Positions 1,236 through 62,152 of a stretch of 64,000 bases of DNA are shown piece by piece. Under the pieces are notes generated by a model that ran no database searches, was not told the origin of the DNA, and saw only the letters and a list, made by a program, of their open reading frames with translations. The stretch spans positions 2,418,001 to 2,482,000 of the forward strand of contig NZ_PYAU01000001.1 in NCBI RefSeq assembly GCF_003014675.1. Direction: 5' to 3'. Source of the DNA: Labedella gwakjiensis. Lineage in GTDB: Bacteria > Actinomycetota > Actinomycetes > Actinomycetales > Microbacteriaceae. The translations under genes were made by a program, and so were the position numbers. Position 1 is the first letter of the stretch, and each line of letters opens with the position of its first letter.

Positions 1236-1856
1236 ATGCCCAAGCTCTACTTCCGCTACGGGGCGATGAACTCCGGCAAGAGCACGGCGCTCCTGCAGGC
1301 GGCGTACAACTACGAGGAGCGCGGGCAGCGGGTGCTCCTCGCAAAGCCCGCCGTGGACACGAAGGGCAACCGCTCGATCGAGTCGCGCCTCGGCGTGAGC
1401 CGCGAGGTCGACTACGTGATCGAGCCGGGGGAGGACACCCTCGCGCAGTTCCAGCGGCACCGGCGCGAGTCGGTGGAGCGCGACGGCGTCGACGTGAGCT
1501 GCCTGCTCGTCGACGAGGCCCAGTTCCTCGAGAGCGCCCAGGTGGACGGCCTCCTGCGCGTCGCCCTCCTCGAGGGCGTGCCCGTGCTTGCCTACGGGAT
1601 CCGGACCGACTTCCTCACGGAGGCGTTCCCGGGGTCCCGTCGCCTCCTCGAGGTCGCGCACTCGCTCGAGGAGCTCAAGACCATCTGCCGCTGCGGTCGC
1701 AAGGCGCTGTTCAACGGCCGCAAGGTGGGGGACAGGTTCGTGTTCGACGGCGACCAGGTGGCCATCGACGGCGAGGAGGTCACCTACGAGTCGCTGTGCG
1801 GCGTCTGCTACCTGGAGGAGTCCGGAGGCGTCATCGGCGCCACCTCACCCCGCTGA
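1236..1856 (+). CDS. tdk: Thymidine kinase, type II
   Basis: This 206-residue protein phosphorylates thymidine to dTMP in the salvage pathway. The P-loop GAMNSGKST lies at about residues 9-17, and the Walker B-type LLVDEAQFL lies near residue 90. Two cysteine pairs (CRCG near 150 and CGVC near 188) match the structural zinc site of type II kinases. Length is normal for the family. The ATG lies 4 bases after the mqo stop with no strong ribosome site of its own, suggesting translational coupling. The next genes are on the opposite strand. Confidence 0.95.
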   Translation: MPKLYFRYGAMNSGKSTALLQAAYNYEERGQRVLLAKPAVDTKGNRSIESRLGVSREVDYVIEPGEDTLAQFQRHRRESVERDGVDVSCLLVDEAQFLESAQVDGLLRVALLEGVPVLAYGIRTDFLTEAFPGSRRLLEVAHSLEELKTICRCGRKALFNGRKVGDRFVFDGDQVAIDGEEVTYESLCGVCYLEESGGVIGATSPR

Positions 1857-1863
1857 TCGGGAC

Positions 1864-2358
1864 TCAGCGACGGTTGGAGCGCCGTCGCAGGGCCAGTCGG
1901 AGCGTCGTGACCACGAGGGCGCCGATCGTGGCTCCCGCGGTGTTCGCGAGCACGTCGAGCGGGGTCGCGAAGCGTTCGGGGAGGAGCATCGCCTGCCCGA
2001 ACTCGATGGCGAGCGACAGCGCGAGCCCGATGATCGGCACGAGCCACCATTCCCAGCGGGGCAGGAGCAGCGCGATGAGCACACCGACGGGGACGAACAT
2101 CACGATGTTCGCGCCGAACTCCAGGTGGGCGTAGTCGACCCAGGCGGGTGCTCCCGCGGCGGCGAGCCGCTCGAGGATCGACCGGAGGAGGCTGTGCACT
2201 CCCCGGTCCACCGGGACCGGCCAGTAGCCGATCGTGAAGACCGCAGCCATGACGGCGGCCGCGAGGACCCGGACGACGATCCGCGCCGTCCGTGATCGTT
2301 CCGGCCCCGGGGCCGGGCCCCTGAGTGCTTCGCGCCTCGCCGAACGGTCGGGCGTCAC
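1864..2358 (-). CDS. VanZ-like family membrane protein (second of a tandem pair)
   Basis: A 164-residue protein is predicted from a GTG at 2358 that overlaps the TGA of the upstream gene (GTGA, 4 bp). This start was preferred over longer in-frame extensions, which run antisense through the neighbour. VanZ-like features are four hydrophobic segments, FGANIVMFVPVGVL in the centre, EFGQAMLLPERFATPLDVLANTAGA near the C-terminus (shown in part), and a basic tail. VanZ domains occur in teicoplanin-resistance and many unrelated membrane proteins, and their biochemical role is not established. It closely resembles the adjacent gene, so the pair looks like a tandem duplication. Confidence 0.85.
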   Translation of the reverse strand: MTPDRSARREALRGPAPGPERSRTARIVVRVLAAAVMAAVFTIGYWPVPVDRGVHSLLRSILERLAAAGAPAWVDYAHLEFGANIVMFVPVGVLIALLLPRWEWWLVPIIGLALSLAIEFGQAMLLPERFATPLDVLANTAGATIGALVVTTLRLALRRRSNRR

Positions 2359-2810
2359 GCGGGCTCCGGGCGGGCCGTCCGCGGGCGACCGCCCTTGAGG
2401 CGTCGGCGTCCGCCGAGGAGGCTGAGGGCGCCGCCGATGAGGGCTCCGGCCGTGTTGGCGACCAGGTCGGAGACGGTCGGGAAGCGTTCCGGCAGGAACG
2501 CCGCCTGGAGGAACTCGATGAGGAGGGTGAACGCGAGTCCGAGCACGACCGTCCACGGCCACATCCAGCGGGGGAGGCTCAGCGCGAGGAACAGGCCGAA
2601 CGGCACGAACATCACGATGTTGGCGGTGAATTCGACGGCCTCGAACGTGATCGCCGTGGGCATCCCGATCGTGTACAGCCAGTCGACGATCGCGCGGGCG
2701 AGCGGTGTTCCGTTACCGTCGTCGGGGTTCGGCCACAGTGTGAGGGCGAGGATCGCGAGGGTCGTGACGGCCAGCAGGATGTTCGGGAGGCGTCGCGACA
2801 TGCCCTCCAT
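2355..2810 (-). CDS. VanZ-like family membrane protein (first of a tandem pair)
   Basis: A 151-residue protein starts at an ATG (MEGMSRRLPN; a second ATG at codon 4 is possible). It has four membrane segments and the VanZ landmarks FTANIVMFVPFGLFLALSL and IEFLQAAFLPERFPTVSDL, the latter followed by VANTAGALIGG. The same landmarks appear in the same order in the overlapping downstream gene. Function is unknown beyond membership of the VanZ-like family. The pair lies upstream of and opposite to tRNA-Pro, so it is expressed as a two-gene unit running away from the tRNA. Confidence 0.87.
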   Translation of the reverse strand: MEGMSRRLPNILLAVTTLAILALTLWPNPDDGNGTPLARAIVDWLYTIGMPTAITFEAVEFTANIVMFVPFGLFLALSLPRWMWPWTVVLGLAFTLLIEFLQAAFLPERFPTVSDLVANTAGALIGGALSLLGGRRRLKGGRPRTARPEPA

Positions 2811-2869
2811 TATCGCTGTGTCTCGGAGGCCCCGATTGTCGGGTATCCTGGGTGAGGCCTTCGGGCCAT

Positions 2870-2946
<77 letters not shown>

Positions 2947-2950
2947 TCCG

Positions 2951-2982
2951 GGCCCGGATCCACACGTGGATCCGGGCCTTTC
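2951..2982 (+). terminator. Rho-independent terminator after tRNA-Pro
   Basis: A 13-bp perfect stem has arms at 2951-2963 and 2966-2978 (GGCCCGGATCCAC and its complement), followed by TTTCT. It begins 4 bases after the encoded CCA, as expected for termination of a tRNA transcript. No gene is seen between here and 3099. Confidence 0.85.
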
Positions 2983-3099
2983 TGGTTCCTGCCGATGTAC
3001 CAGGACCTGTCGAACGCACCGGTTCGATGCCGCGTCCGAGAGTTCCTCGACCACGGTCACCGGACTCGCGGATCGTCACGGTACCGGTTCGAGCGGGCG

Positions 3100-3639
3100 T
3101 CAGGAGTTCGGTAGCTGACTGCCGATCAGGGTGAACCCGAGCAGTACCGCGGCGAAGAAGACCGCCGTCGCCATGGAGAAGGCGGGGAACCACTGCGCTC
3201 GGGTCCGGTGCCACACGAGCACCCCGGCGAACCCATCGAGGACCGGGGCTCCGACCGGCGCGATGGCGAGGATCCAGAGGACGGGGCCCGAGATCGAGAG
3301 GGGGATGCATCGGCCGGCGTCCACCCCTCGGAGAACAGAGGCCCAGTCATCGGCGGCCGACGCGATCGGCCAGAAGGCGGTGAGGGCAGAGACGATCAGG
3401 GCGATCACGGCGATCAGGACATACTCGTCGCGAGGGGTGGGAGCACTCCCCGATCTCGTGCGCCAGAGCATGACGAGAAGGACCGCGCCCACGGCGACCA
3501 ACGCCGTCGAGAAAGCCGTAGCCGTCAGGGTGTCATTGCTCAGTCCCGGGCACGACACGAGGGAGTCGAGCCGCGCCAGGAGCGGTAATCCGGCTGCGGA
3601 GATCACGAGGACCGCGAGGACGCAGAGTGCTTTCCGCAT
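3100..3639 (-). CDS. Hypothetical small multi-pass membrane protein
   Basis: I do not recognise this 179-residue protein. It has about five hydrophobic segments: an N-terminal ALCVLAVLVISAAGLPLLA stretch, then segments near residues 40-60, 75-95, 120-145 and 155-175. Two cysteines lie in the predicted outer loops. The ATG at 3639 was chosen because GACGGA lies 6 bases upstream; an ATG at 3645 in the same frame is the alternative. It follows the membrane-protein gene at 3651-4223 by about a dozen bases, so the two form an operon. Similar lone membrane-protein pairs are common in actinobacteria without assigned function. Confidence 0.7.
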   Translation of the reverse strand: MRKALCVLAVLVISAAGLPLLARLDSLVSCPGLSNDTLTATAFSTALVAVGAVLLVMLWRTRSGSAPTPRDEYVLIAVIALIVSALTAFWPIASAADDWASVLRGVDAGRCIPLSISGPVLWILAIAPVGAPVLDGFAGVLVWHRTRAQWFPAFSMATAVFFAAVLLGFTLIGSQLPNS

Positions 3640-3650
3640 GTTCATTCCGT

Positions 3651-4223
3651 CTACGGCAGTCGTTGCGCGATCAGTACCACGATGGAGACGCTGGTGATGG
3701 CCGGGGCGAGGAGCGCGGCTCCCCACAGAGGCAGGCTTCGGGATCGTGCCGCGAAGCGTCGAGCGACGAGTCCGAAGCTCAACGCGCCGACGTACGAGCC
3801 CATCGTGATCCACGGCAGCACGTCAAGCGCGTCGCTTGCGAGGATCTGTCGCGGTGTGTAGTCGGGCGCGCTCCCCCAACTCCACCAGGTCATCACCAGC
3901 GAAAGGATCGAGGCAACCCCCAGGAGGGCCAATCCGCACCCGGGGCCCCATGTCGGCACGATCGATCGGCCGGACCGGTCGACGAGTGCTGAACTGATCG
4001 CGAGTGCGGCCGCCGTGCCCCCGAGGATGGCGGCGGTCACGAGAGCGTGGCGGTTCATCATCCACTCGTCGCCACGGAGAATCGATTCATAGAGGGGATG
4101 GACGACGTTCATCACCACGACGATCAACGGGATGCTCACGACGGACACGATCAACGCGAGCACATGGGACAGGATCAGGAGGATGAGGCGAGGACGCACC
4201 CTCGGTGATGCAACGAAGGTCAC
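3651..4223 (-). CDS. Hypothetical membrane protein
   Basis: This 190-residue protein is not recognised. It has four predicted membrane segments: LILLILSHVLALIVSVVSIP near the N-terminus, ALVTAAILGGTAAALAIS, a central GLALLGVASILSLVMTWW segment, and a C-terminal LLAPAITSVSIVVLIAQ. The start is a GTG preceded by a GGCGGAGA stretch. It is cotranscribed with the following membrane protein. The N-terminal third resembles the short membrane-anchored proteins that accompany many Gram-positive operons, but no catalytic motif is visible. Confidence 0.7.
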   Translation of the reverse strand: MTFVASPRVRPRLILLILSHVLALIVSVVSIPLIVVVMNVVHPLYESILRGDEWMMNRHALVTAAILGGTAAALAISSALVDRSGRSIVPTWGPGCGLALLGVASILSLVMTWWSWGSAPDYTPRQILASDALDVLPWITMGSYVGALSFGLVARRFAARSRSLPLWGAALLAPAITSVSIVVLIAQRLP

Positions 4224-4255
4224 TCTCCGCCCCCGTCAACCTCGCCGCCCCACTA

Positions 4256-4313
4256 CCCCAAAAAGATGGCGATACGGCCCGAAATTTCGTGCTGTATCGC
4301 CATCTTTTTGGGG
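4256..4313. repeat. 58-bp intergenic palindrome, family copy 1
   Basis: A 58-bp near-perfect palindrome is centred between 4284 and 4285, with arms CCCCAAAAAGATGGCGATAC and the complementary GTATCGCCATCTTTTTGGGG and a GAAATTTC centre. The only mispairs are a G-T wobble and one C/T mismatch. The A and T runs next to the G/C-rich arm allow it to act as an intrinsic terminator in either direction. It sits 5 bp past the stop of the metallophosphoesterase gene. The same arms recur at 21934-21987 and 50693-50750. Confidence 0.9.
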
Positions 4314-4318
4314 TGTTG

Positions 4319-5299
4319 TCAGCGCTCGGCGGGCACGAGGGTAAGGAGCGTGGCCTCGGGGAGGCAGGCGAACCGCACGGGGGCGTAGATCGATGTGCCG
4401 AGGCCCGCTGAGACGTGCAGGTGGGCGCTCCGGTAGGCGTGGCGCCAGACGCTCAGTCCCTTCACCTGACGGCGGGGGATGTCGCAGTTCGTCACGAGCG
4501 CTCCGAAGAACGGAACACACACCTGGCCTCCGTGGGTGTGACCGGCCAGGATGAGGTCGGCGCCGTGTGTCACGAACGACGCGAGCACGCGGCGGTAGGG
4601 CGCGTGGGCGACGCCGACCGTCACGGTGCGCTCAGCATCCGTGGCGTCCTCATCGAGGGTCTCCTCATCCTGCTGGGAGTCGATGAGGCCCGTGAGCCGG
4701 TCCAGACGGTCGCGTCCGATGTGGGGGTCGTCGACGCCGAAGAAATCGAGGCGGGTGCCCTTGATCGTGAGGGAACCGACCGCGTTGTTGAGACCGATCC
4801 AGCCGAGGCCGTCGCGGAAGAAGCGCTCGAGCCGAGCCGTGTCGAGGTCGGCGGGGGTGTCCTTCACTCCGCCCGAATGACGGATGAGGTACCGGAGCCA
4901 GTTCTTGCGGAGTGGTCCGTGGTAGTCGTTCGAGCCGTTGACGTAGACGCCCGGGATGTTCTCGTACCCCGCGAACGCGGCCTCGATCCCGTCGATGCCC
5001 TCTTCGTGACCGAGGTTGTCGCCCGTGTCGACGACGAGGTCGGGTCGCAGCTGCGCAAGCGAACGCACCCACGACTGCTTGTCCCGCTGCCAGGGGGCCA
5101 TGTGCAGGTCGGAGACGTGGAGCACGCGGATCGGCTCGGCACCTGCGGGGAGCACCGGCACGGTCACTCGACGGAGGGTGAACATCTTCCGCTCGACGAG
5201 GGAGCCCCACGCGAACGCGAGTGCGCCCGCAAGCGCCGTGGCGCCCAGCACGATGCCGGGCGCCACGATGCCGCGGGGGAGGCGCGAACTCACCCGCAA
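4319..5299 (-). CDS. Membrane-anchored metallophosphoesterase
   Basis: This 326-residue protein has an N-terminal membrane segment (about residues 13-32) and a calcineurin-like phosphoesterase domain. Metal-binding motifs appear in order: HVSDLH at about 61-66, DTGDN at 91-95, GSND at 122-125 in place of the more common GNHD, and GHTHGG near 255. The family hydrolyses phosphate esters with a two-metal centre; the substrate is unknown. Its first 10 bases overlap the end of the penicillin-binding protein gene, so translation is coupled. The same pair order (ponA2 then a metallophosphoesterase) is known in mycobacteria (Rv3682-Rv3683), suggesting a cell-envelope role. Confidence 0.88.
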   Translation of the reverse strand: MRVSSRLPRGIVAPGIVLGATALAGALAFAWGSLVERKMFTLRRVTVPVLPAGAEPIRVLHVSDLHMAPWQRDKQSWVRSLAQLRPDLVVDTGDNLGHEEGIDGIEAAFAGYENIPGVYVNGSNDYHGPLRKNWLRYLIRHSGGVKDTPADLDTARLERFFRDGLGWIGLNNAVGSLTIKGTRLDFFGVDDPHIGRDRLDRLTGLIDSQQDEETLDEDATDAERTVTVGVAHAPYRRVLASFVTHGADLILAGHTHGGQVCVPFFGALVTNCDIPRRQVKGLSVWRHAYRSAHLHVSAGLGTSIYAPVRFACLPEATLLTLVPAER

Positions 5300-7800
5300 C
5301 CGATCGTCACGGTGTCGCCCTTGTTGGCGTCCGTGTTGCCTCCGGGTGACTGCGTGGTCACCCGTTTGTCGTCGCCCTCGCAGTTCTTATCGAACTTCGT
5401 GGCGAACCCGGCACCCTCCACCTGTTGCTTGGCTTCCTGTGGCGTTTCGCCGACGACGTCGGGGATGGTCGCACCGTTGCCGCTACTCACGTAGATCGTG
5501 ATCCCCGTACCGACGTTCACGTTGGTGCCACCGGCCGGGTCGGTGCGAGCCACGAGGCCTGCACCTTCCGTCGAGGGCACCGGGTCGGGCGACACGGTGA
5601 CGGAGAAGCCCTTGTCCTCGATGGTGGCCGTGGCCTCCTCGACGGACATGCCCGTCACGTTCGGAACGGAACGCGTGACGACCTTGGTGAGGTTGGGGTC
5701 AGGCGCGGGGAACGCGCCACCCGGGAGGGCCTCGTCGATTCCCGTCATGATCTGCTTCCAGATCCCGAACCGAGCAGAGTTGCCCGCGGTATTGCCGATA
5801 CGGATGTTCGCGAGGTCGACCTTGCCTTCGACGTTGCCCACCCAGAGAGCGACCGCAGCGGAGGTCGATGCCCCGGCCAGCCAGGTGTGCAGACGGTTGT
5901 CCGTCGTTCCTGTCTTACCGATGAGCTGGGTGCCGTCGTAGGGATTTCCGGCCGCTCCCGTACCGCCGTTCATGACACCCTTCAGAGCGTACGCCGCGGT
6001 GTTCGCGACGTTCTCTGGGATGGCCTGCGTGCAGGTGCTCTGCGGCGGCTGGATCTCGGCACCGTCGGGACCGACGATGCGGTCGATCGCGACGGGCGTG
6101 CAGTACTTGCCCTGGGCTGCGATCGCGGCGTACGAGCCGGCGACGTCGATGGGCGCCACCTCGTTCACACCGATGATCGACGTGGGGTAGGCGACGAGCT
6201 CGTCACCGTCTGCACGCTTCATGCCGAGCGACTTGGCGACGTCGCGGATCTCGCAGAGGTCGAGCTGCTCGGCCATGGCGGCGAAGCCCGTGTTGAGGGA
6301 CCGCGCGGTGGCCGACATCACGCTGAGGTTCGAACCCGGGGCATTGCCCGAGTTACGGAACTTGTAGGTGCCGCCGGACTCGGGACACGAACCGGTGAGG
6401 GTGTAGTCACGGATGGTGCCGCGCACGACCTCGTTGACGGAGTGCCCATTCATGAGCCAGTCCACGAGGGTGAAGAGCTTGTAGGTGGATCCCGACTGGA
6501 ACCCACGAGACCCGCCATAGTCGTAGGTGGTGTTGTAGTTCACCGTGGTGAAGTTCGGACCGGTCTGCGTATTGCTGTAGTCCTTCGACTGCGCCATCGC
6601 GAGCACACGGCCGGTGCCCGGCTCGATGGTCGTGGCGGCCGCGCCGATGTCGCCGACGGTGGACGTCTTCGGCACGGTGTTGTGGATGGCCTGCTCACTC
6701 GAGAGCTGCGCCTTCATGTTGAGCGTGGTGTAGATGTCCAGGCCGCCGCGCTTGAGGAGATTGAGGCGGTCGGTGGGGTTCTCACCGAACTCCGGGCTGT
6801 TCCGGATCACGTTGATGACGTAGTCGCAGAAGTACGCGCTGCCGCCGGCCGTCTCGCAGCCGGTCTGCAGCGGCTTGATGTTCGGCTCGACCGGAGCCTT
6901 CGAGGCCTCGTCGTACTGCTCCTGCGTGATCTTGCCGTAGGCGAGCATCGCCTGCAGCGTCACGTTGCGAGCCTTGAGAGTCTTCTCGTAGCCGTTGGCC
7001 GCGCCGTTCGTCTCGCTGTCCGGCTTGTCGATGCGGAGCGAGTTCGGGTTGGTCACCATCGAGACGATCGTGGCGGCCTGCACGAGGCTGGCGTCTTTCG
7101 CGGAGACACCGAAGTAGTACTGCGACGCGGACTCCACGCCGTAGGTCACGCCGCCGAAGTGCGCGATGTTGAGGTAGCCGCGCAGGATCTCGTCCTTCGA
7201 GTACTTCTTCTCGAGGCCGATCGCGTAGCGCATCTCCTTGAGCTTGCGGGCCATGCCCTCGGAGCCGTTCGAGGTGGTGTACGCCGTGGCGCACTCCTCG
7301 CCCTCCTCCAGCGTCTCGGAGTCGCTCACGCAACGCTGGATGAGGGTGTTCTTCACGTACTGCTGGGTGATCGACGATCCACCCTGCACGTTCTGGCCGA
7401 GCGCGTTCGACACGACGGCTCGCGTGGTGCCGATGACATCGACCCCGCCGTGCTCGTAGAAGCGGTTGTCCTCCTTGGCGACGGCCGCGTCCTTGAAGTA
7501 CTGCGAGATGTCGTCCCACTGCACCTCCTGGCGGTTCTGGTCGTAGAACTGCGCCAGCTGGACGGGCGTGGTGCCGTCGCTGTCGTACGCATAGATCGTC
7601 GACTTCTCCATGAGAGGCGTGATCTCGAGGAAGTCGGGGAGGGAGTTGAACACCTTGATGGTGTTGTTCGCTCCCATGCCGGAGAGGGCGAGGGCCGGAG
7701 TGACGGCGGCGGTGACGAGGACACCGGCAGCGACGCTGAGGCCGACGAAGCCGAGGAGGCCCCCGAACACACCTCTAGCCGTACGTTTTTGATGAGGCAT
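5290..7800 (-). CDS. Bifunctional penicillin-binding protein with PASTA domains (PonA2-like)
   Basis: This 836-residue class A PBP polymerises glycan strands and cross-links peptidoglycan on the outer face of the membrane. A basic N-terminus is followed by a membrane anchor (about residues 11-38). The glycosyltransferase (GT51) catalytic glutamate is in KEDNRFYEHGG near residue 110. The transpeptidase has SxxK as STYK near 438, an SLN triad near 500, and KTGTT near 628. Two PASTA repeats occupy about 700-768 and 770-836. It resembles mycobacterial PonA2, which also carries a PASTA end. It shares 10 bp with the metallophosphoesterase gene. Confidence 0.95.
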   Translation of the reverse strand: MPHQKRTARGVFGGLLGFVGLSVAAGVLVTAAVTPALALSGMGANNTIKVFNSLPDFLEITPLMEKSTIYAYDSDGTTPVQLAQFYDQNRQEVQWDDISQYFKDAAVAKEDNRFYEHGGVDVIGTTRAVVSNALGQNVQGGSSITQQYVKNTLIQRCVSDSETLEEGEECATAYTTSNGSEGMARKLKEMRYAIGLEKKYSKDEILRGYLNIAHFGGVTYGVESASQYYFGVSAKDASLVQAATIVSMVTNPNSLRIDKPDSETNGAANGYEKTLKARNVTLQAMLAYGKITQEQYDEASKAPVEPNIKPLQTGCETAGGSAYFCDYVINVIRNSPEFGENPTDRLNLLKRGGLDIYTTLNMKAQLSSEQAIHNTVPKTSTVGDIGAAATTIEPGTGRVLAMAQSKDYSNTQTGPNFTTVNYNTTYDYGGSRGFQSGSTYKLFTLVDWLMNGHSVNEVVRGTIRDYTLTGSCPESGGTYKFRNSGNAPGSNLSVMSATARSLNTGFAAMAEQLDLCEIRDVAKSLGMKRADGDELVAYPTSIIGVNEVAPIDVAGSYAAIAAQGKYCTPVAIDRIVGPDGAEIQPPQSTCTQAIPENVANTAAYALKGVMNGGTGAAGNPYDGTQLIGKTGTTDNRLHTWLAGASTSAAVALWVGNVEGKVDLANIRIGNTAGNSARFGIWKQIMTGIDEALPGGAFPAPDPNLTKVVTRSVPNVTGMSVEEATATIEDKGFSVTVSPDPVPSTEGAGLVARTDPAGGTNVNVGTGITIYVSSGNGATIPDVVGETPQEAKQQVEGAGFATKFDKNCEGDDKRVTTQSPGGNTDANKGDTVTIGCG

Positions 7801-8597: not shown

Positions 8598-8663
8598 CAC
8601 ATACAGCTTTTGAGCGTGATTGCACCGATATACCGGTGCGATCACGCTCAAAAGCTGTATGTG
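8598..8663. repeat. 66-bp palindrome between convergent genes (bidirectional terminator)
   Basis: Arms CATACAGCTTTTGAGCGTGAT and its complement (first and last bases at 8598 and 8663) pair over about 30 bp around the centre CCGATATACCGG. It lies between the convergent ridA and acs genes, so a two-way terminator is the simplest role. It has long perfect arms like the 58-bp family but different sequence, sharing only the short ATACAGC word. Confidence 0.8.
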
Positions 8664-21517: not shown

Positions 21518-21918
21518 TCTCCCTCAGATACTGCGCCATCACCGTCAACGACGTCGACGAGTCGATCGTCTTCTACCGGGACGCCCTCGGCTTCGAGGTG
21601 CGGAACGACGTCTCGTCGGGTGAGTTCCGCTGGGTCACCCTCGGCGCGGGCTCCGACCCGGCCGCAGCGGAGCTCGTGCTCTCGGCCCCGCACGCCGGTC
21701 GTTCACAGGCGGACGGTGACGCCGTCCAGGAACTCCTCGTGAAGGGTGTGCTCGGCTTCTTCGTGTTCCAGACCGACGACGTCGACGCGGCCTTCGAACG
21801 CGCCCGTGCTGCGGGAGCCGACGTGCTCCAGGAACCGATCGATCAGCCGTGGGGTCCCCGCGACTGCGCGTTCCGTGACCCCTCGGGCAACACCATCCGT
21901 ATCAACCAGGCCGCCTGA
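21514..21918 (+). CDS. VOC superfamily (glyoxalase-like) protein
   Basis: This 134-residue protein has the paired beta-alpha-beta-beta-beta fold of the vicinal-oxygen-chelate superfamily. The N-terminal half begins YCAITVNDVDESIVFYRDAL and the C-terminal half ends GPRDCAFRDPSGNTIRINQ. The glutamate usual in the second metal site (DPxGNxxEL) is replaced by arginine (TIRINQ), so metal binding, if present, differs. It may be a resistance or antibiotic-binding protein or a lyase. It is coupled to the AraC regulator by a 4-bp overlap. Confidence 0.88.
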   Translation: MISLRYCAITVNDVDESIVFYRDALGFEVRNDVSSGEFRWVTLGAGSDPAAAELVLSAPHAGRSQADGDAVQELLVKGVLGFFVFQTDDVDAAFERARAAGADVLQEPIDQPWGPRDCAFRDPSGNTIRINQAA

Positions 21919-21933
21919 CCGCCGACACCCGCA

Positions 21934-21987
21934 CCAAAAAGATTGCGATACGGCCCGAAAACTCGTGCTGTATCGCAATCTTAATGG
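21934..21987. repeat. Intergenic palindrome, family copy 2
   Basis: The arms CCAAAAAGATTGCGATACGGC and GCTGTATCGCAATCTT match copy 1 (4256-4313) with one changed base pair in each arm (T-A for G-C), a compensatory change. The centre is CGAAAACTCG. It lies between the convergent VOC and GH35 genes, 16 bp past the VOC stop, and probably terminates both. Confidence 0.88.
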
Positions 21988-21997
21988 GGTGGGGGGG

Positions 21998-23779
21998 TCA
22001 GAACTCGGTGTGGCCGAGGTCGGCGGTGGGGCGGAACGCAAGGACGCCCGTCGTGGTGCCGGTCTCGAAGATGACGATCTCGTTGGTGCCGACACGCAGG
22101 ACGGGAGCGGGAACGCGCAGCGTGTGCTGTGGTCCGCGCGACCAGTAGCGGCCGAGCGGGAATCCGTTCACCCACGCCGCGCCCTTGCCCCAGCCGCTCG
22201 AATCGAGGTGGAGATCACCCACGGCGGAGACCTCGACCGTGCCCACGTGGAACGCCGGTCCGACGGCGGGCTCCGCGGCGCGGGTCGTGTTCGTCCCCGC
22301 GACGTCCGGATCCTCCACGAGACCGAGGTCGCGCGCGGGATCGTCGAGCGCGAGCGGCAGCACGGACCACGGGCCGACGCTCTCACCGCCGACGGTCACA
22401 GGGCCGATGAGGCCCTTCGGCTCGCCGATGCGGACGCCGTAGTTCACGCGCCCCTGGTCCTCGACGAGGACCTCGACTCGGCGGGAGCCCGCCCCGGGGA
22501 GCACGATCGCGTTCTCGTGCGCGTCGCGGGACAGGACGCCGACGGGTGAGCCGTCGACGAAGACCTGGGCGCGGTCGCGCACCTCCTCGCATGCGAGGAC
22601 GACGGGGCCGCTGGTATCGATGTCGAGGCGGTAGAGAACGTACCCGGAGTAGTGCCCGATCTCATCCATCGTCGGGGCGTCGTCGTGATGCGTCCAGCCG
22701 TCGACGCGGTCCACGACGGCGGAGAGCGGCACGACGCGATCGATTCCCGCCCTGTCCACGACCCCGATCGCCGGCCCGGCGGGGGTCTCCGTCGGCACCT
22801 CCGTGTAGCGGGAGAGGACCTCGCGGAACGCCCAGTACTTCGCCGTCGGGGCGCCGCTCTCGTCGAGGAGGGCGTCGTAGTCGTAGCTCGTGACCGTGGG
22901 CTGGTAGACGCCCTTGTCGTTCGCGCCGTTCGTGAAACCGAAGTTGGTGCCGCCGTGGAACATGTAGATGTTGACGGAGGCCCCGGCGGCGAGGAGCGTG
23001 TCGAGTTCGCCTGCCGCCTCGTCGACCGGTGTCGTGTGGTGGTGCGCTCCCCAGTGGTCGAACCAGCCGATCCAGAACTCGGACGACATGAGTGGACCCG
23101 TCGGCTGGTGCCGGCGGAGCGTCGCGAGGCGCTCGGTGGCGCGCGACCCGAACGATCCCGTGCGGTGGAGCTCGGGGAGGCTGCCGCGGGACAGCATCTC
23201 GTCGGTGGGCTGGTCGACCGTGATGAACGGGACGGTCAGTCCGATCCCGCGGTTCATCTCGATGAGGGCCCGCAGGTAGTCGGCGTCGTCGCCGTAGGCG
23301 CCGTACTCGTTCTCGATCTGCACGAGGACGATCGGTCCGCTCCTGTCGATCTGCCGCGGGACGAGAACGGGCGCGAGGTGATCGAAGAAGGTCGCGATCG
23401 CGGCGAGGAACCGCGGCTCGTTGCGCCGCACGCCCGTCTCGCCGTCGATGAAGAGCCACGCGGGCAGCCCGCCGCCGTCCCACTCCGCGCAGATGTACGG
23501 ACCGGGTCGGACGATCGCGTGCATGCCCTCGGCGGCGACGTCGTCGAGGAAGCGGCCGAGGTCGAGTCGCCCGTCCAGATCGAACGTGTCGGGAGTGCGC
23601 GCGTGCAGGTTCCATGGCACGTACGTCTCGATCGTGTTGAGCCCCAGGAGTCGCGCGGCTCGGATGCGGTCGCGCCACTCGTCCGGGTGCACGCGGAAGT
23701 AGTGCAGGGCTCCCGAGAGGATGCGGTGCGGTTCGCCGTCGAGCAGGAAGTCGGCGTCACCGATGCGGAAGTCAGCCAC
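21998..23779 (-). CDS. Beta-galactosidase, GH35
   Basis: This 593-residue enzyme removes terminal beta-galactose, probably from plant arabinogalactan or galactan fragments. The (beta/alpha)8 domain begins LSGALHYFRVHPDEW. The acid/base glutamate is in IENEYG near residue 156 and the nucleophile is in SSEFWIGWFD near 234. MFHGGTNFGFTNGA is a GH35 signature. Beta-jelly-roll domains complete the C-terminus. No signal peptide is seen, so it acts inside the cell on imported sugars. The GTG at 23779 overlaps the stop of the GH51 gene by 8 bases and has GGAGG 6 bases upstream. Confidence 0.94.
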   Translation of the reverse strand: MADFRIGDADFLLDGEPHRILSGALHYFRVHPDEWRDRIRAARLLGLNTIETYVPWNLHARTPDTFDLDGRLDLGRFLDDVAAEGMHAIVRPGPYICAEWDGGGLPAWLFIDGETGVRRNEPRFLAAIATFFDHLAPVLVPRQIDRSGPIVLVQIENEYGAYGDDADYLRALIEMNRGIGLTVPFITVDQPTDEMLSRGSLPELHRTGSFGSRATERLATLRRHQPTGPLMSSEFWIGWFDHWGAHHHTTPVDEAAGELDTLLAAGASVNIYMFHGGTNFGFTNGANDKGVYQPTVTSYDYDALLDESGAPTAKYWAFREVLSRYTEVPTETPAGPAIGVVDRAGIDRVVPLSAVVDRVDGWTHHDDAPTMDEIGHYSGYVLYRLDIDTSGPVVLACEEVRDRAQVFVDGSPVGVLSRDAHENAIVLPGAGSRRVEVLVEDQGRVNYGVRIGEPKGLIGPVTVGGESVGPWSVLPLALDDPARDLGLVEDPDVAGTNTTRAAEPAVGPAFHVGTVEVSAVGDLHLDSSGWGKGAAWVNGFPLGRYWSRGPQHTLRVPAPVLRVGTNEIVIFETGTTTGVLAFRPTADLGHTEF

Positions 23780-48695: not shown

Positions 48696-50555
48696 ATGAG
48701 CATCGCGCAGATCACGGACGTCGACCGGGCCGACGTCGACGAGACCACCCCCACCGCACACCGCGGCATCGAGGCACTCCGCGCGTGGGTCGACCAGATC
48801 GCCGCCCTCACCGAGCCGGCGGACATCGTCTGGTGCAACGGCTCGCGTGCCGAGTCGGACCGACTCACGAAGCAGCTCGTGGCCGAGGGCAAGCTCATCA
48901 GACTCAACCCCGAGTGGCGGCCCAACAGCTTCCTCGCACGCACCGACCCGAGCGACGTCGCCCGTGTCGAAGCGCGCACCTTCATCTGCACGACGTTCGA
49001 GGAGGACGCCGGCCCCACCAACAACTGGGTCGCTCCCGAGGAGATGCGCACCGAGCTCGACGGTGTCTTCGCCGGCAGCATGCGCGGGCGCACGATGTAC
49101 GTCGTCCCGTTCTCGATGGGTCCGGTCGGAGGTCGGCTCTCGCAGCTCGGTGTCCAGCTCACCGACTCGGAGTACGCCGTGCTGTCGATGGGTGTCATGA
49201 CGCGCATGGGCGACCGTGTCCTCGACCTCATCGCGGCCGGGGAGTCGTGGGTCGCGACCGTGCACTCGGTGGGGGCTCCCCTCGCCCCGGGCGATGAGGA
49301 CGTCGCCTGGCCGTGCAACGAGACGAAGTACATCGTCCAGTTCCCGGAGACGCGCGAGGTGTGGTCGTACGGCTCCGGCTACGGCGGCAACGCGATCCTC
49401 GCCAAGAAGTGCTTCGCGCTCCGCATCGCCTCGGCGATGGGCCGCGAAGAGGGCTGGCTCGCCGAGCACATGCTGCTCATCAAGCTCACGGATCCGCAGG
49501 GCCGCTCGTTCCACATCGCTGCGGCGTTCCCCTCGGCGTGCGGCAAGACCAACCTCGCGATGCTCCGCCCGTCGCTTCCCGGCTGGAGCGTCGAGACCAT
49601 CGGAGACGACATCGCCTGGCTGCGTCCCGGCGACGACGGACGGCTCTGGGCCATCAACCCGGAGGCGGGCTTCTTCGGCGTCGCACCCGGTACAGGCGAG
49701 TCGACGAACGTGACGGCCGTCGAGACGCTCTGGGGCAACACGATCTTCACGAACGTCGCTCTGCGCGACGACGGCGACGTGTGGTGGGAGGGCCTCACCG
49801 ACACGCCTCCAGCCCACCTCATCGACTGGGAGGGACGCGACTGGACGCCCACGAGCGGTCGTCCGGCCGCGCACCCGAACTCCCGGTTCACGGTGGCCGC
49901 CGCGCAGTGCCCTCAGATGGCGGACGACTGGCAGGCGCCCGACGGCGTGCCCATCGACGCGATCCTCTTCGGTGGACGGCGGGCGACGAACGTGCCGCTC
50001 GTCGTCGAGGCGACGGATTGGCGACACGGCGTCTTCATCGGTGCCACGATCTCCTCGGAGAAGACGGCGGCCGCGGAAGGCACCGTCGGCGAGCTGCGCC
50101 GTGACCCGTTCGCGATGCTCCCGTTCTGCGGCTACAACATGGCGGACCACTGGGCGCACTGGCTGTCGATCGGCGAGAAGCTGCGCTTCGACCGGGCTCC
50201 GCGCATGTTCCAGGTCAACTGGTTCCGGAAGGGACCGGACGGTGAGTTCCTGTGGCCGGGCTTCTCGGAGAACGCCCGCGTCCTCGAATGGATCGCGGGG
50301 CGCGTCTCCGGCGACGTCGCCGCGGAGGAGTCGTCGATCGGTCGCCTTCCGCTGCTCGAGGACCTCGATGTAGAGGGTCTCGACCTCGCCGATGGCGCGC
50401 TCGAGCGCCTGTTCGCCGTCGACCCCGCGTCGTGGAGTGACGAGGCCGACCTCACCGAGGAGTTCTTCGCTCAGTTCGGCGGCCGACTGCCGGCCGCCCT
50501 CTCGACGGAGCTCGCTGCCCTCCGGTACCGCCTGGCCACGACTGTGCCAGCCTGA
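48696..50555 (+). CDS. pckG: Phosphoenolpyruvate carboxykinase (GTP)
   Basis: This 619-residue enzyme converts oxaloacetate and GTP to PEP and CO2, opening gluconeogenesis from acids such as acetate. The P-loop with the catalytic cysteine is [12 protein letters not shown] near residue 280. Other family stretches are [30 protein letters not shown] and the lid region [19 protein letters not shown]. The ATG at 48696 follows GGAGGGAA by 6-8 bases, which decides against the ATG at 48666. It is divergent from RamB. A palindrome pair follows the gene. Confidence 0.96.
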
Positions 50556-50599
50556 CGGCCCACCCACCCACCTGCTCCTCTCGCCGCGCCTCGTGGGCG

Positions 50600-50674
50600 G
50601 GGGTGGTGGGTCGGGTGGCGGCGCAGCTCGACCTTGGCGGGACCGATCTGCGTCACCACCCGACCCCCCACCCC
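50600..50674. repeat. Imperfect GT/AC-rich inverted repeat after pckG
   Basis: Left arm 50600-50626 (starts GGGGTGGTGGGTCGGGTGG) and right arm 50648-50674 pair at 24 of 27 positions around a 21-base loop. It lies 45 bp past the pckG stop, just ahead of the 58-bp family palindrome. It forms a very stable stem on the RNA, and could help stop transcription or process the 3' end. Confidence 0.7.
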
Positions 50675-50692
50675 CTCCACCCCACCCCCGTA

Positions 50693-50750
50693 CCCCAAAA
50701 AGACGGCGATACAGCATCAAACCCGGTGCTGTATCGCCATCTTTTTGGGG
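50693..50750. repeat. 58-bp intergenic palindrome, family copy 3
   Basis: The arms CCCCAAAAAGACGGCGATAC and GTATCGCCATCTTTTTGGGG match copy 1 base for base except one position, with exactly the same 58-bp length; only the loop (CATCAAACCCGGTG) differs. It lies between the convergent pckG and ABC exporter genes. Both flanks have G/T-rich runs (GGGGTGGGGTGGGG after it). Confidence 0.9.
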
Positions 50751-50776: not shown

Positions 50777-52729
50777 TCAGACGAGGAGCTGGTGCTTCGC
50801 GAGGTCGCGGTAGAGCGGAGTCGACTCCACGAGTTCGGAGTGAGTGCCCGAGCCCACCACGCGGCCGTCCTCGAGCACGACGATGTGGTCGCTGTCGACG
50901 ACCGTCGAGAGCCTGTGCGCGATCACGATGAGCGTGCGGTCCGCCGCGACGGCGTCGATCGCGAGGCGCATCTTCTGCTCGTTCACCCCGTCGAGGCTCG
51001 ATGTGGACTCGTCGAGCAGCAGGATCGGGGGAGCGGCCACGAGAGCGCGGGCGATCGACAAGCGCTGGCGCTCGCCGCCCGAGAGCATGATGCCGTCTTC
51101 GCCCACCGGCGCGTCGAGCCCGGCGGGGTCGCGGTCGAGCACGTCGCCGAGGTTCACGGCGTGGAGCACATCGATGCAGAGCTCGTCGGTCGCCTCGGGG
51201 TTGCCGAGGAGCAGGTTCTCGCGGATCGTCCCCGCGAGCACGGGTGCGTCCTGCTCCACGTAGCCGATCCGAGCACGGAGCTCGTCGCGCGGCATCGACC
51301 GCACGTCGACGCCGTCGAGCCGCACCACGCCGGACGCGGGGTCGTAGAAGCGCTCGATGAGACCGAGGATCGTGGATTTGCCTGCGCCACTCGGACCCAC
51401 GAGAGCCGTGCGTCGACCGCGTTCGGCGGCGAAGCTCACCCCCCGGAGCACGGGGTCGCCAGGCATGCGCTTCGCTGTGGAGTCCTTCTCGGTGGACGCC
51501 GACTCGGGGGTAACGTCCGGGACGGGGGGCCGGTCGGACGATCCGCCCGTCGCATCGTCGGCGACCGGTCGGGTCGCATACGCGAACACCACGTCGTCGA
51601 ACGCGATCGCCGGCTGCGCCTCCGCCGGGGTCTTCGGTGCAGCGGCGGATGCGGCGATCTCGGCGTCGTTCGCGTCCTCCGACGGCAGGCCGATGATCTC
51701 CTGGATGCGCCCGAGGGCGCCGAGTGCCTGGTTGGTCGCCGTGATGGCGCCGAAGGCCTGGCCGAGCGGCATGATCATCATGAAGAGGAACAGGATGAAG
51801 GCGACGAGGTTCGCGACGGTGATCGAGCCGGAGGCCACCCGGAAGCCGCCGACGCCGAGCACGACGAGGAACGACACCTGCAGCGCGATGCCCGCGACCG
51901 GTACGATGAGGGCCGAGATCTTCGCGACGCTGATCCCCATGCGCCATGCGCCGGTGGCATCCTCCTCGATCGCGCGGATCTCGCGATCCGTCGCTCCCGC
52001 GGCACGGATGGTCCGCACGGCGCTGATGGCACGTTCGACCGAGGCGGCGAGATCGCCCACCTTCTTCTGTGCGCGGGCGCTCGCCACCCGGATGCGTGCC
52101 GCGAGGAGGACGACCGTCACGACCGAGACGGCGACGACGAGCACCGTCAGCCCGAGGAGGACCGGATCGATGATGAACATCGCGATGAGTGCGCCCACGA
52201 ACGTGACGGCTCCGCCGACCGCCTCGACGAGTCCTTGTGTGAGGACGGCCCGCAGCAGTGTCGTGTCGCTGCCGACGCGCGACACCAGGTCGCCCGTGCG
52301 TCGGGCGTCGAACTCGGACACGGGGAGGTGCAGCATGCGTGAGACGAGTCGTCGTCGGGAGCTGAGCACGACGCCCTCTCCCGTCCGTTGGAGGAGGTAG
52401 TGCTGGTATCCGCTGATGAGTCCGCTCACCACGACCAGGCCGATGAGACCCCAGACGAGGGTGCCGAGCGAGTCGCCGCTCTCCACGATCGAGATGACCT
52501 GGCTCACAAGCAAGGGCTGGGCGAGCGACGCGCCGGCCCCGAGGATGCTGAGCACGATGATGAACCACAGGATCCGGCTGTGCTCGAAGAGATACGGCAG
52601 GAGCTCGCTGAAGCGGGCGCGGGGGCCTTCGTCGATCTCGCCGCCGCGTCGTCCGCGACCCCGGCCACCCGCGCGTGAGGCGCGTTCGGTGGCCGGCGTC
52701 GATCGATCGGAGCTGGTGGTGCTGGTCAT
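50777..52729 (-). CDS. ABC exporter, fused permease and ATPase
   Basis: The 650-residue half-transporter has six membrane helices in residues 45-350, then an ATPase domain. Walker A is GPSGAGKST near 448, signature is LSGGERQRLSIARAL, Walker B is ILLLDESTS and the H-loop IAHRLST. Two such chains dimerise to export lipids, peptides or drugs. Between the A-loop region (FAYATRP near 380) and GDPVLRGVSFAAERG (near 424) lies about 40 extra residues rich in D, S, T and P, unlike typical members. The small HTH gene upstream on the same strand may be its regulator. Substrate unknown. Confidence 0.9.
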   Translation of the reverse strand: MTSTTSSDRSTPATERASRAGGRGRGRRGGEIDEGPRARFSELLPYLFEHSRILWFIIVLSILGAGASLAQPLLVSQVISIVESGDSLGTLVWGLIGLVVVSGLISGYQHYLLQRTGEGVVLSSRRRLVSRMLHLPVSEFDARRTGDLVSRVGSDTTLLRAVLTQGLVEAVGGAVTFVGALIAMFIIDPVLLGLTVLVVAVSVVTVVLLAARIRVASARAQKKVGDLAASVERAISAVRTIRAAGATDREIRAIEEDATGAWRMGISVAKISALIVPVAGIALQVSFLVVLGVGGFRVASGSITVANLVAFILFLFMMIMPLGQAFGAITATNQALGALGRIQEIIGLPSEDANDAEIAASAAAPKTPAEAQPAIAFDDVVFAYATRPVADDATGGSSDRPPVPDVTPESASTEKDSTAKRMPGDPVLRGVSFAAERGRRTALVGPSGAGKSTILGLIERFYDPASGVVRLDGVDVRSMPRDELRARIGYVEQDAPVLAGTIRENLLLGNPEATDELCIDVLHAVNLGDVLDRDPAGLDAPVGEDGIMLSGGERQRLSIARALVAAPPILLLDESTSSLDGVNEQKMRLAIDAVAADRTLIVIAHRLSTVVDSDHIVVLEDGRVVGSGTHSELVESTPLYRDLAKHQLLV

Positions 52730-61865: not shown

Positions 61866-61928
61866 TCCGGGGCGCCGCGATGCCGTGGGGACATCGACGA
61901 CAGCGGTCGTCGGAGAACCGGCGACCGT

Positions 61929-62071
61929 CGTGCTGCCTTCCATCCGGACTCGAGCCGATCCGTGAGGATCGACCCATAACCGTCGGTGCCGGAGTTCCAC
62001 CGGCTCAACCGCACGAATGCGGGTCGCGGACTATCACCGCCGGTTCGGACTCTCACCGACCCCGGAGCACG
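61929..62071 (-). promoter_or_regulatory. FMN riboswitch (RFN element)
   Basis: On the minus strand the conserved RFN segments appear in order: CTCCGGGGTCGGTGAGAGTC, CGAACCGGCGGTGATAGTCC, GCGACCCG, then GGTGGAACTCCGGCACCGACGGT and, after a variable stem, GAGTCCGGATGGAAGGCAGC. The closing stem is CGTGCT (62066-62071) with AGCACG (61929-61934). It binds flavin mononucleotide and lowers expression of the rib operon downstream. The variable stem (GATCC/GGATC) is typical. Confidence 0.96.
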
Positions 62072-62152
62072 TGTCTCCTGCGATCATAAATCACCGCGAC
62101 CGGCACGGGGTCATTCGCGCCTGTGAGGTTTCCCTGCGTGACGCGGGTCCCG

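Follow-up and report, generated by a model that had tools for sequence, protein, structure and literature searches.

Palindromes behind stop codons in four Labedella species occupy many shared slots and appear to evolve in concert

Introduction

Short dispersed repeats of bacterial chromosomes include the pneumococcal BOX and RUP elements, which are of MITE nature. Higgins is said to have asked in 1988 whether another such class, the REP elements, evolves by gene conversion. According to the portions of the literature available to us, REP elements have a conserved GT(A/G)G head (PMC2817692), and their classes turn over, with related strains having different ones at orthologous RAYT genes (PMC3686654). 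Portions of another study describe the DUS dialects of Neisseriaceae, in which a spelling is used genome-wide and differs between species, inverted pairs are suggestive of terminators, and copy numbers run from 1543 to 5918 (PMC3630211).

Here we describe a family of 58-bp palindromes in the genus Labedella that shares traits with each of these systems. It was noticed in a 64,000-nucleotide stretch (hereafter, the window) of the 3.84-Mb genome of L. gwakjiensis, which we compared with the genomes of L. endophytica, L. populi and L. phragmitis. Palindromes occupy many of the same slots in the four species, while the spelling of their arms is uniform across each genome and differs between species.

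Results

Three palindromes in the window

The initial annotation of the window had listed three palindromes, starting at positions 4256, 21934 and 50693, and all three are present, although the full register of the second begins two bases earlier. Copy 1 (4256–4313) lies between same-strand genes, 5 nt past the stop of a minus-strand metallophosphoesterase gene (4319–5293). An A–T pair directly outside extends it to 4255–4314. Folded as RNA, 82 nt gave predicted energies of −52.7 kcal/mol (z −9.97) for one strand and −51.0 kcal/mol (z −10.29) for the other. Copy 2 (21932–21989) stands between the convergent genes for a glyoxalase-like protein (stop at 21918) and a GH35 beta-galactosidase (21998–23779, minus strand), and copy 3 (50693–50750) between those for PEPCK (stop at 50555) and an ABC exporter (50777–52729, minus strand). 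The proposed placement of copies 2 and 3 between convergent genes, and of copy 1 at 5 nt from a stop, was thus borne out by our home-made gene calls. Matches to the arms with at most three mismatches numbered six in the window, versus none in 100 shuffled sequences.

Copies 1 and 3 had been described as differing by one base of the left arm. The single T/C difference holds for the 20-nt left arms, and the 20-nt right arms are identical, but the inner parts differ too. Likewise, the compensatory change reported for copy 2 exists (GATGG/CCATC to GATTG/CAATC) but is accompanied by uncompensated ones, with CACC at the left edge and TTAATGGGG at the right edge. At the site orthologous to copy 3, two congeners have a different palindrome, which in one of them consists of CCCCCTGAAAACTTCCTATGTGCTCGAAA and its complement and also spans 58 bp; the third congener has a decayed palindrome there (by eye). 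An Rfam scan of the window at the gathering score found nothing at the three copies and returned only an FMN riboswitch and two tRNAs. The riboswitch is at 61926–62074 on the minus strand (77.3 bits).

The window also contains two other hairpins. One, at 50599–50675 on the 3′ side of the PEPCK gene, has stem changes that go in step (by eye) and a loop stretch, CGACCTTGGCGGGACCG, that is identical in the four Labedella species; it had no match in Rfam. The other, at a convergent junction (8598–8663), belongs to a second, unrelated palindrome family with arms around CAGCTTTTGAGCGTGATTGCACCG and a loop of mostly 6 nt. Matches to its arm with at most three mismatches numbered 17 in L. gwakjiensis, none in L. 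endophytica and L. populi, and one in L. phragmitis. Of the 13 sites listed, ten were seen as palindromes and three rest on one arm match, and these 13 lie closer to dnaA than do those of the 58-bp family (median 0.36 versus 0.82 Mb, P 0.003).

A family of 43 copies with preserved pairing

A search of the whole L. gwakjiensis genome extended the three palindromes to a dispersed family, as had been suspected, with 43 copies of one 58-bp palindrome that all have identical spacing; a control search with the reversed pattern found zero copies. Single arms with at most three mismatches matched 81 times (40 on the plus and 41 on the minus strand), each time inside one of the 43 copies, so neither a solo arm nor a longer element with such ends was seen. 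The closest two copies start 1081 bp apart. The copies are unevenly spread, with a largest gap of 1.03 Mb (none of 5000 random placements gave one as large), and they are sparse in the third of the chromosome farthest from dnaA (at 1.654 Mb), the counts by thirds of origin distance being 17, 23 and 3. We used the position of dnaA as our guide to the origin, the GC-skew signal being too weak.

Each arm has the layout CCCC-AAAAAGAT-NN-CGATAC-AGC-inner. Ten positions of the half-arm (1, 3, 4, 5, 8, 9, 16, 17, 20 and 23) are invariant in all 86 halves, and variation is found at positions 13–15 and in the inner third, except at position 23. Hairpin pairing is maintained through double changes: 92.9% of 1092 cells are paired, compared with 87.3% in shuffles, and the pairing was lost when partners were slid. 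Genome-wide, 53 cells had changes on both sides of a pair, whereas shuffles gave 18.4 and none of the 500 reached 53, so that the compensatory change of copy 2 is one case among many. Counted by pair, the excess is slight and less telling (10 of 26 pairs with a both-side change, versus 8.1 in shuffles, 60 of 500 being as high). Pairs 13–15 vary yet stay mostly paired. Copying of one arm from the other within a palindrome could likewise yield both-side changes.

For the five copies that we folded, one of them on both strands, the predicted RNA energies ranged from −51 to −74 kcal/mol (z −8.4 to −14.4). On either strand of L. gwakjiensis, the 30 nt that precede the hairpin are rich in C and poor in G (58% C and 13% G; 57% C and 12% G), the base pair directly outside the palindrome is A–T in 37 of 43 copies, and the paired CCCC/GGGG stands outside the A5/T5 tract.

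Gene context and predicted folding suggest a place at transcript 3′ ends

Across the four species we assembled 151 copies, whose gene context was assigned by a home-made gene caller that uses codon usage and was trained on the loci retrieved. By these calls, 91 copies lie between convergent and 54 between same-strand genes, three between divergent genes and two inside a gene, with one unassigned. Adjoining gene 3′ ends fall within 40 nt of the copy in 217 of 237 cases, at a median of 12 nt on each side in convergent pairs. For some neighbours of the B- and C-dialect copies in the three congeners, the stop codon apparently lies inside the CCCCCTGA edge (distance −8).

The family had been read as one of bidirectional terminators that spreads by copying. 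The position of the hairpins at gene 3′ ends and the signs of copying between sites, described below, agree with that reading, but the canonical terminator fits best in the L. gwakjiensis dialect. A stable predicted hairpin right past the stop codons, as expected of intrinsic terminators, was found for each of the five copies folded. A U-tract near the 3′ foot of the stem, however, belongs to the L. gwakjiensis dialect and is not a trait of the whole family: a T-run of at least five within the last 18 nt was present at 76 of 86 ends in L. gwakjiensis, 32 of 88 in L. endophytica, 2 of 66 in L. populi and 3 of 62 in L. phragmitis, and a run of at least four at 76, 69, 20 and 25 ends, respectively. 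In the window, a simple terminator scan flagged copy 3 alone of the three copies, and its hit count for the stretch around that copy was at the chance level (1 versus 1.1 in shuffles). Because the T-run is rare in L. populi and L. phragmitis and the scan was at chance, the genus-wide trait would be a long hairpin behind C-rich sequence and not a canonical intrinsic terminator, which on the T-run counts best fits L. gwakjiensis. Judged by where they stand and how they are predicted to fold, the hairpins would mark the 3′ ends of transcripts from both strands, where they might act in Rho-linked termination or in 3′-end protection.

Shared slots carry a different spelling in each species

Searched with at most two mismatches, none of 58 further genomes from the same genus, family and order, the three congeners included, had the L. 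gwakjiensis arms. The exact L. gwakjiensis (A) pattern had no match in the genome_contigs collection, from which the record of this genome itself may have been left out, and a pattern for the B and C dialects matched 17 stretches there, all within three Labedella species; a wide spread among bacteria was rejected on these results. Spread on viruses was likewise rejected, as two dialect patterns had no exact match in viral_contigs. When the arms were sought loosely in two further genera, most of the matches listed were chance-like.

We built a covariance model from 30 copies of three species. It matched 89, 91, 68 and 57 strands in L. gwakjiensis, L. endophytica, L. populi and L. phragmitis, respectively, and among 36 other genomes it matched none in 35 and gave two weak matches in one (G020). 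Because 139–150 of 411–460 first-look candidates per Labedella genome, and 106–139 per other genome, were scored, these copy numbers are lower bounds and the absence elsewhere pertains to the candidates scored. Matches at two sites in L. endophytica, one in L. populi and three in L. phragmitis (among the weakest) stand outside the 151 copies.

When slots were matched by both flanks, 33 of the 43 L. gwakjiensis copies proved common to at least one of the three congeners, and seven slots to all three. L. gwakjiensis and L. endophytica have 30 slots in common, compared with a chance expectation of ~4–5 that assumes ~420 convergent junctions per genome, a number extrapolated from the seven in the window and one that same-strand sites would raise. 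In 31 of the 33 shared slots the congener palindrome is written in another, genome-wide dialect; the other two have a decayed copy of the L. gwakjiensis type in L. endophytica. The main dialects are A in L. gwakjiensis, TGAAAACTTC with a TGAAAATCCC minority in L. endophytica, TGAACACTTC in L. populi, and TGAAAATCCC with a CATNAATTTGGCGATGG minority in L. phragmitis, and 20 of the 151 copies fall outside all dialect groups. A pair of palindromes ~1 kb apart near 2.516 Mb is found in all four species, each time in the local dialect. Arms conserved at orthologous positions had been named in the initial annotation as an argument against a mobile or dispersed family. The outcome is split, in that the arms are not conserved there, yet many such positions do have a palindrome, built from different arms.

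Three of the 151 copies, picked up by the covariance model at L142 and L162 in L. endophytica and at L133 in L. phragmitis, probably belong to another family; their arms resemble AAGACCGCG...CGCGGTCTT and may represent a third type of hairpin. In another genus of the family (genome G009), one 200-kb sample contained ten long inverted repeats, five of which (L266, L267, L269, L270 and L272) have arms like TCGAGCYTGYCGAGAY, whereas the first 200 kb contained nine, all without such arms; this genome may possibly have a dispersed palindrome family of its own.

Ten L. gwakjiensis copies lie outside shared slots, and three of them (L043, L044 and L052) have one flank in common with congener palindrome sites. 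Readings of slots as decayed or empty were made by eye. In the slot of copy 1, 14 bp replace the palindrome in L. endophytica between well-aligned flanks, and L. populi and L. phragmitis have other decayed palindromes, with the right flank alone aligned. The slot of L058 has a decayed palindrome in L. endophytica and none in L. populi or L. phragmitis, that of L064 a covariance-model match in L. endophytica between two flank hits, and those of L039 and L048 unrelated long hairpins in L. endophytica where the family copy is missing. The slot of L075 (2.786 Mb) is empty in L. populi and L. phragmitis, with 75 bp missing and no target duplication visible by eye, as at the few empty sites inspected. 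The right neighbour of copy 2 (L068) was not found in L. populi or L. phragmitis and gave no match in L. endophytica. Because some slots are empty in congeners, the hairpin is evidently not indispensable there.

Signs of sequence exchange between slots

To compare copies by nearest relative we used those of exactly 58 bp, 120 of the 151 (43, 32, 31 and 14 in L. gwakjiensis, L. endophytica, L. populi and L. phragmitis, respectively). Of these, 84 of the 86 in shared slots are closer to a paralogue in their own genome than to any orthologue, the two exceptions being the decayed A-type copies in L. endophytica. Vertical inheritance of each slot's sequence was rejected, as orthologous pairs differed no less than shuffled ones (P 0.10, 0.78, 0.76 and 0.24 for the four species pairs with at least five pairs). 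Judged from these comparisons, the dispersed hairpins evolve in a manner that bears the mark of concerted evolution.

Several observations suggest copying between slots. One pair of identical 58-mers in distant slots occurs in each of three genomes. Among the 43 L. gwakjiensis copies, 11 pairs have at most three differences, versus 2.6 expected (maximum of 500 shuffles, 15), and the 86 halves have 45 distinct inner 9-mers, versus 65 expected (minimum of 1000 shuffles, 57). In L. populi, the new base at position 10 and C16 occur together (Fisher P 0.0025, with 29 copies concordant), and mosaics of an old and a new half account for 2 of 31 copies. Other observations speak against recent wholesale copying: arm type shows no linkage to inner sequence within a half in L. 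gwakjiensis (P 0.93), an excess of near-identical pairs is absent among the 22 L. endophytica and 27 L. populi copies tested, and the half-arm positions listed above are invariant. Local homogenisation by chromosomal distance was not supported, as similarity shows no decay with distance (Mantel P 0.12).

Flank identity is 85.3% between L. gwakjiensis and L. endophytica, 85.2% between L. populi and L. phragmitis, and 82.7–83.4% for the other pairs. The L. endophytica arms are nevertheless nearer those of L. populi than those of L. gwakjiensis (mean difference 13.1 versus 28.9 over non-orthologous pairs). Because arm similarity departs in this way from flank similarity, and because L. endophytica keeps two decayed copies of the L. 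gwakjiensis type, several arm variants probably coexisted and different winners took over in different species.

Discussion

The reading that we favour, and think somewhat probable on balance, is that these are bidirectional 3′-end hairpins in old slots that have been overwritten by copies of a winning variant. It builds on the position of the palindromes, their stable predicted hairpins and preserved pairing, the shared slots, and arms that are uniform within a genome and differ between species. The hairpin would end transcription or protect mRNA 3′ ends, mostly between convergent genes and right behind their stop codons. Slots would exchange sequence either by ectopic conversion limited to the 58-bp unit or by re-copying into an occupied slot, with the result that one variant takes over the genome while the slots persist. 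Most slots would retain a hairpin of some kind through selection, and the invariant positions of the arms may be maintained by a sequence-specific factor. More tentatively, we propose a RAYT-independent system that rewrites 3′-end hairpins as a set, in which a new variant is copied into occupied slots and species dialects result; the rewriting might be driven by an arm-recognising enzyme, or by breakage of the palindrome followed by repair with another copy as template. The second palindrome family of L. gwakjiensis, which lies closer to the origin, suggests that a genome can contain two or more of these sets.

The ten invariant half-arm positions are explained by a factor that recognises them at least as well as by copying, and perhaps better, and such a factor is central to an alternative without any copying, in which a protein binds the arms, its specificity drifts, and the slots follow by parallel compensated substitutions. 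This molecular coevolution, which we regard as unlikely though a serious contender, would account for invariance at particular positions in 86 half-arms next to variable ones, for the lack of arm–inner linkage in L. gwakjiensis, and for pairs 13–15 being variable but mostly paired, and it has a parallel, in the parts of the account available, in the DUS dialects and their binding protein ComP (PMC3630211). It would need many parallel substitutions in ~30 slots between species whose flanks are 85% identical, however, and it leaves unexplained the identical 58-mers in distant slots, the linked variants and half-mosaics of L. populi, and the failure of arm similarity to track flank similarity. 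Weighing the signs of copying against the counter-signs, we favour copying plus selection over coevolution alone, with moderate confidence.

The palindromes could instead have been moved by an unrecognised transposase of REP/RAYT-like or MITE-like kind, with re-insertion favoured at old sites. In favour of this, they are scattered over the chromosome and particular to each species, the copies at 754 kb and 864 kb are almost alike (two differences) but oppositely oriented, and REP classes are described, in the portions consulted, as differing among related strains at orthologous RAYT genes (PMC3686654). The MITE-like or REP-like nature raised by the initial annotation is nonetheless not supported: the RAYT transposase domain Y1_Tnp (PF01797) was found in none of the four Labedella genomes (a control search was positive in 5 of 14 known genomes), all 81 arms fall within the 43 copies with no longer element bearing these ends, a GT(A/G)G head is lacking, and no target duplication was seen by eye at the few empty sites. 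Most sites, moreover, are shared and not new. We consider such an element improbable, and RAYT and MITE membership were rejected on the arm and transposase searches. Still less probable, in our estimation, is a role in DNA topology or chromosome organisation, as sites for gyrase, SMC or a nucleoid protein where transcription units converge. Supercoils gather at convergent junctions, and the uneven spread of the copies, with its 1.03-Mb gap and their scarcity far from dnaA, would suit such a role; yet 54 of the 151 copies lie between same-strand genes, mostly still near a stop codon, and the tight distance to stops indicates transcript ends.

When repeats differ between species, the usual explanation is that they have moved into new sites. 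Many of the Labedella sites are old and their spelling is new, so that a retained role, that of a hairpin behind a stop codon, is separable from sequence turnover. The question of gene conversion among dispersed palindromes becomes testable here, with dozens of marked sites per genome, clear dialects, and laggard and half-converted copies. If slots are rewritten as a set, the family would exemplify, in bacteria, regulatory sites that evolve in concert; should a factor recognise the arms, a ready-made specificity series would be present in each species.

Dispersed palindromic repeats are a known kind of element. In the titles, opening parts of abstracts and some passages that made up the literature surveyed, we found no description of the Labedella family and no precedent for shared slots with replaced spelling in the absence of a RAYT. 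Bidirectional intrinsic (Rho-independent) terminators resemble the family in having a hairpin just past the stops of convergent genes, and L. gwakjiensis has the A5/T5 tract, but the T-run is not retained in two of four species, CCCC/GGGG pairs outside the tract, and the sequence is common genome-wide. MITEs have terminal inverted repeats in common with a longer autonomous element, and no such element was seen in L. gwakjiensis. BOX and RUP are likewise short dispersed repeats, but in Labedella we found no autonomous partner and, at the few empty sites inspected, no target duplication. Like REP elements, the palindromes are extragenic (two of 151 called inside a gene), dispersed in many copies (43 in L. 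gwakjiensis) and divided into species-specific classes. Unlike the REP/RAYT systems of gammaproteobacteria, they are near-perfect over 58 bp, form no BIME clusters, have no RAYT that we could find, end in CCCC or CACC ... GGGG or GGTG in the 43 copies, and share slots while their arms are replaced. With DUS, as far as the published portions consulted go, they share a species-specific spelling across the genome and inverted pairs suggestive of terminators, but they form one 58-bp unit in tens of copies, whereas a DUS is a short word in very many copies, bound by a competence receptor. REP class turnover is the best analogy for the species specificity of the Labedella palindromes, and the DUS dialects the best analogy for their genome-wide spelling.
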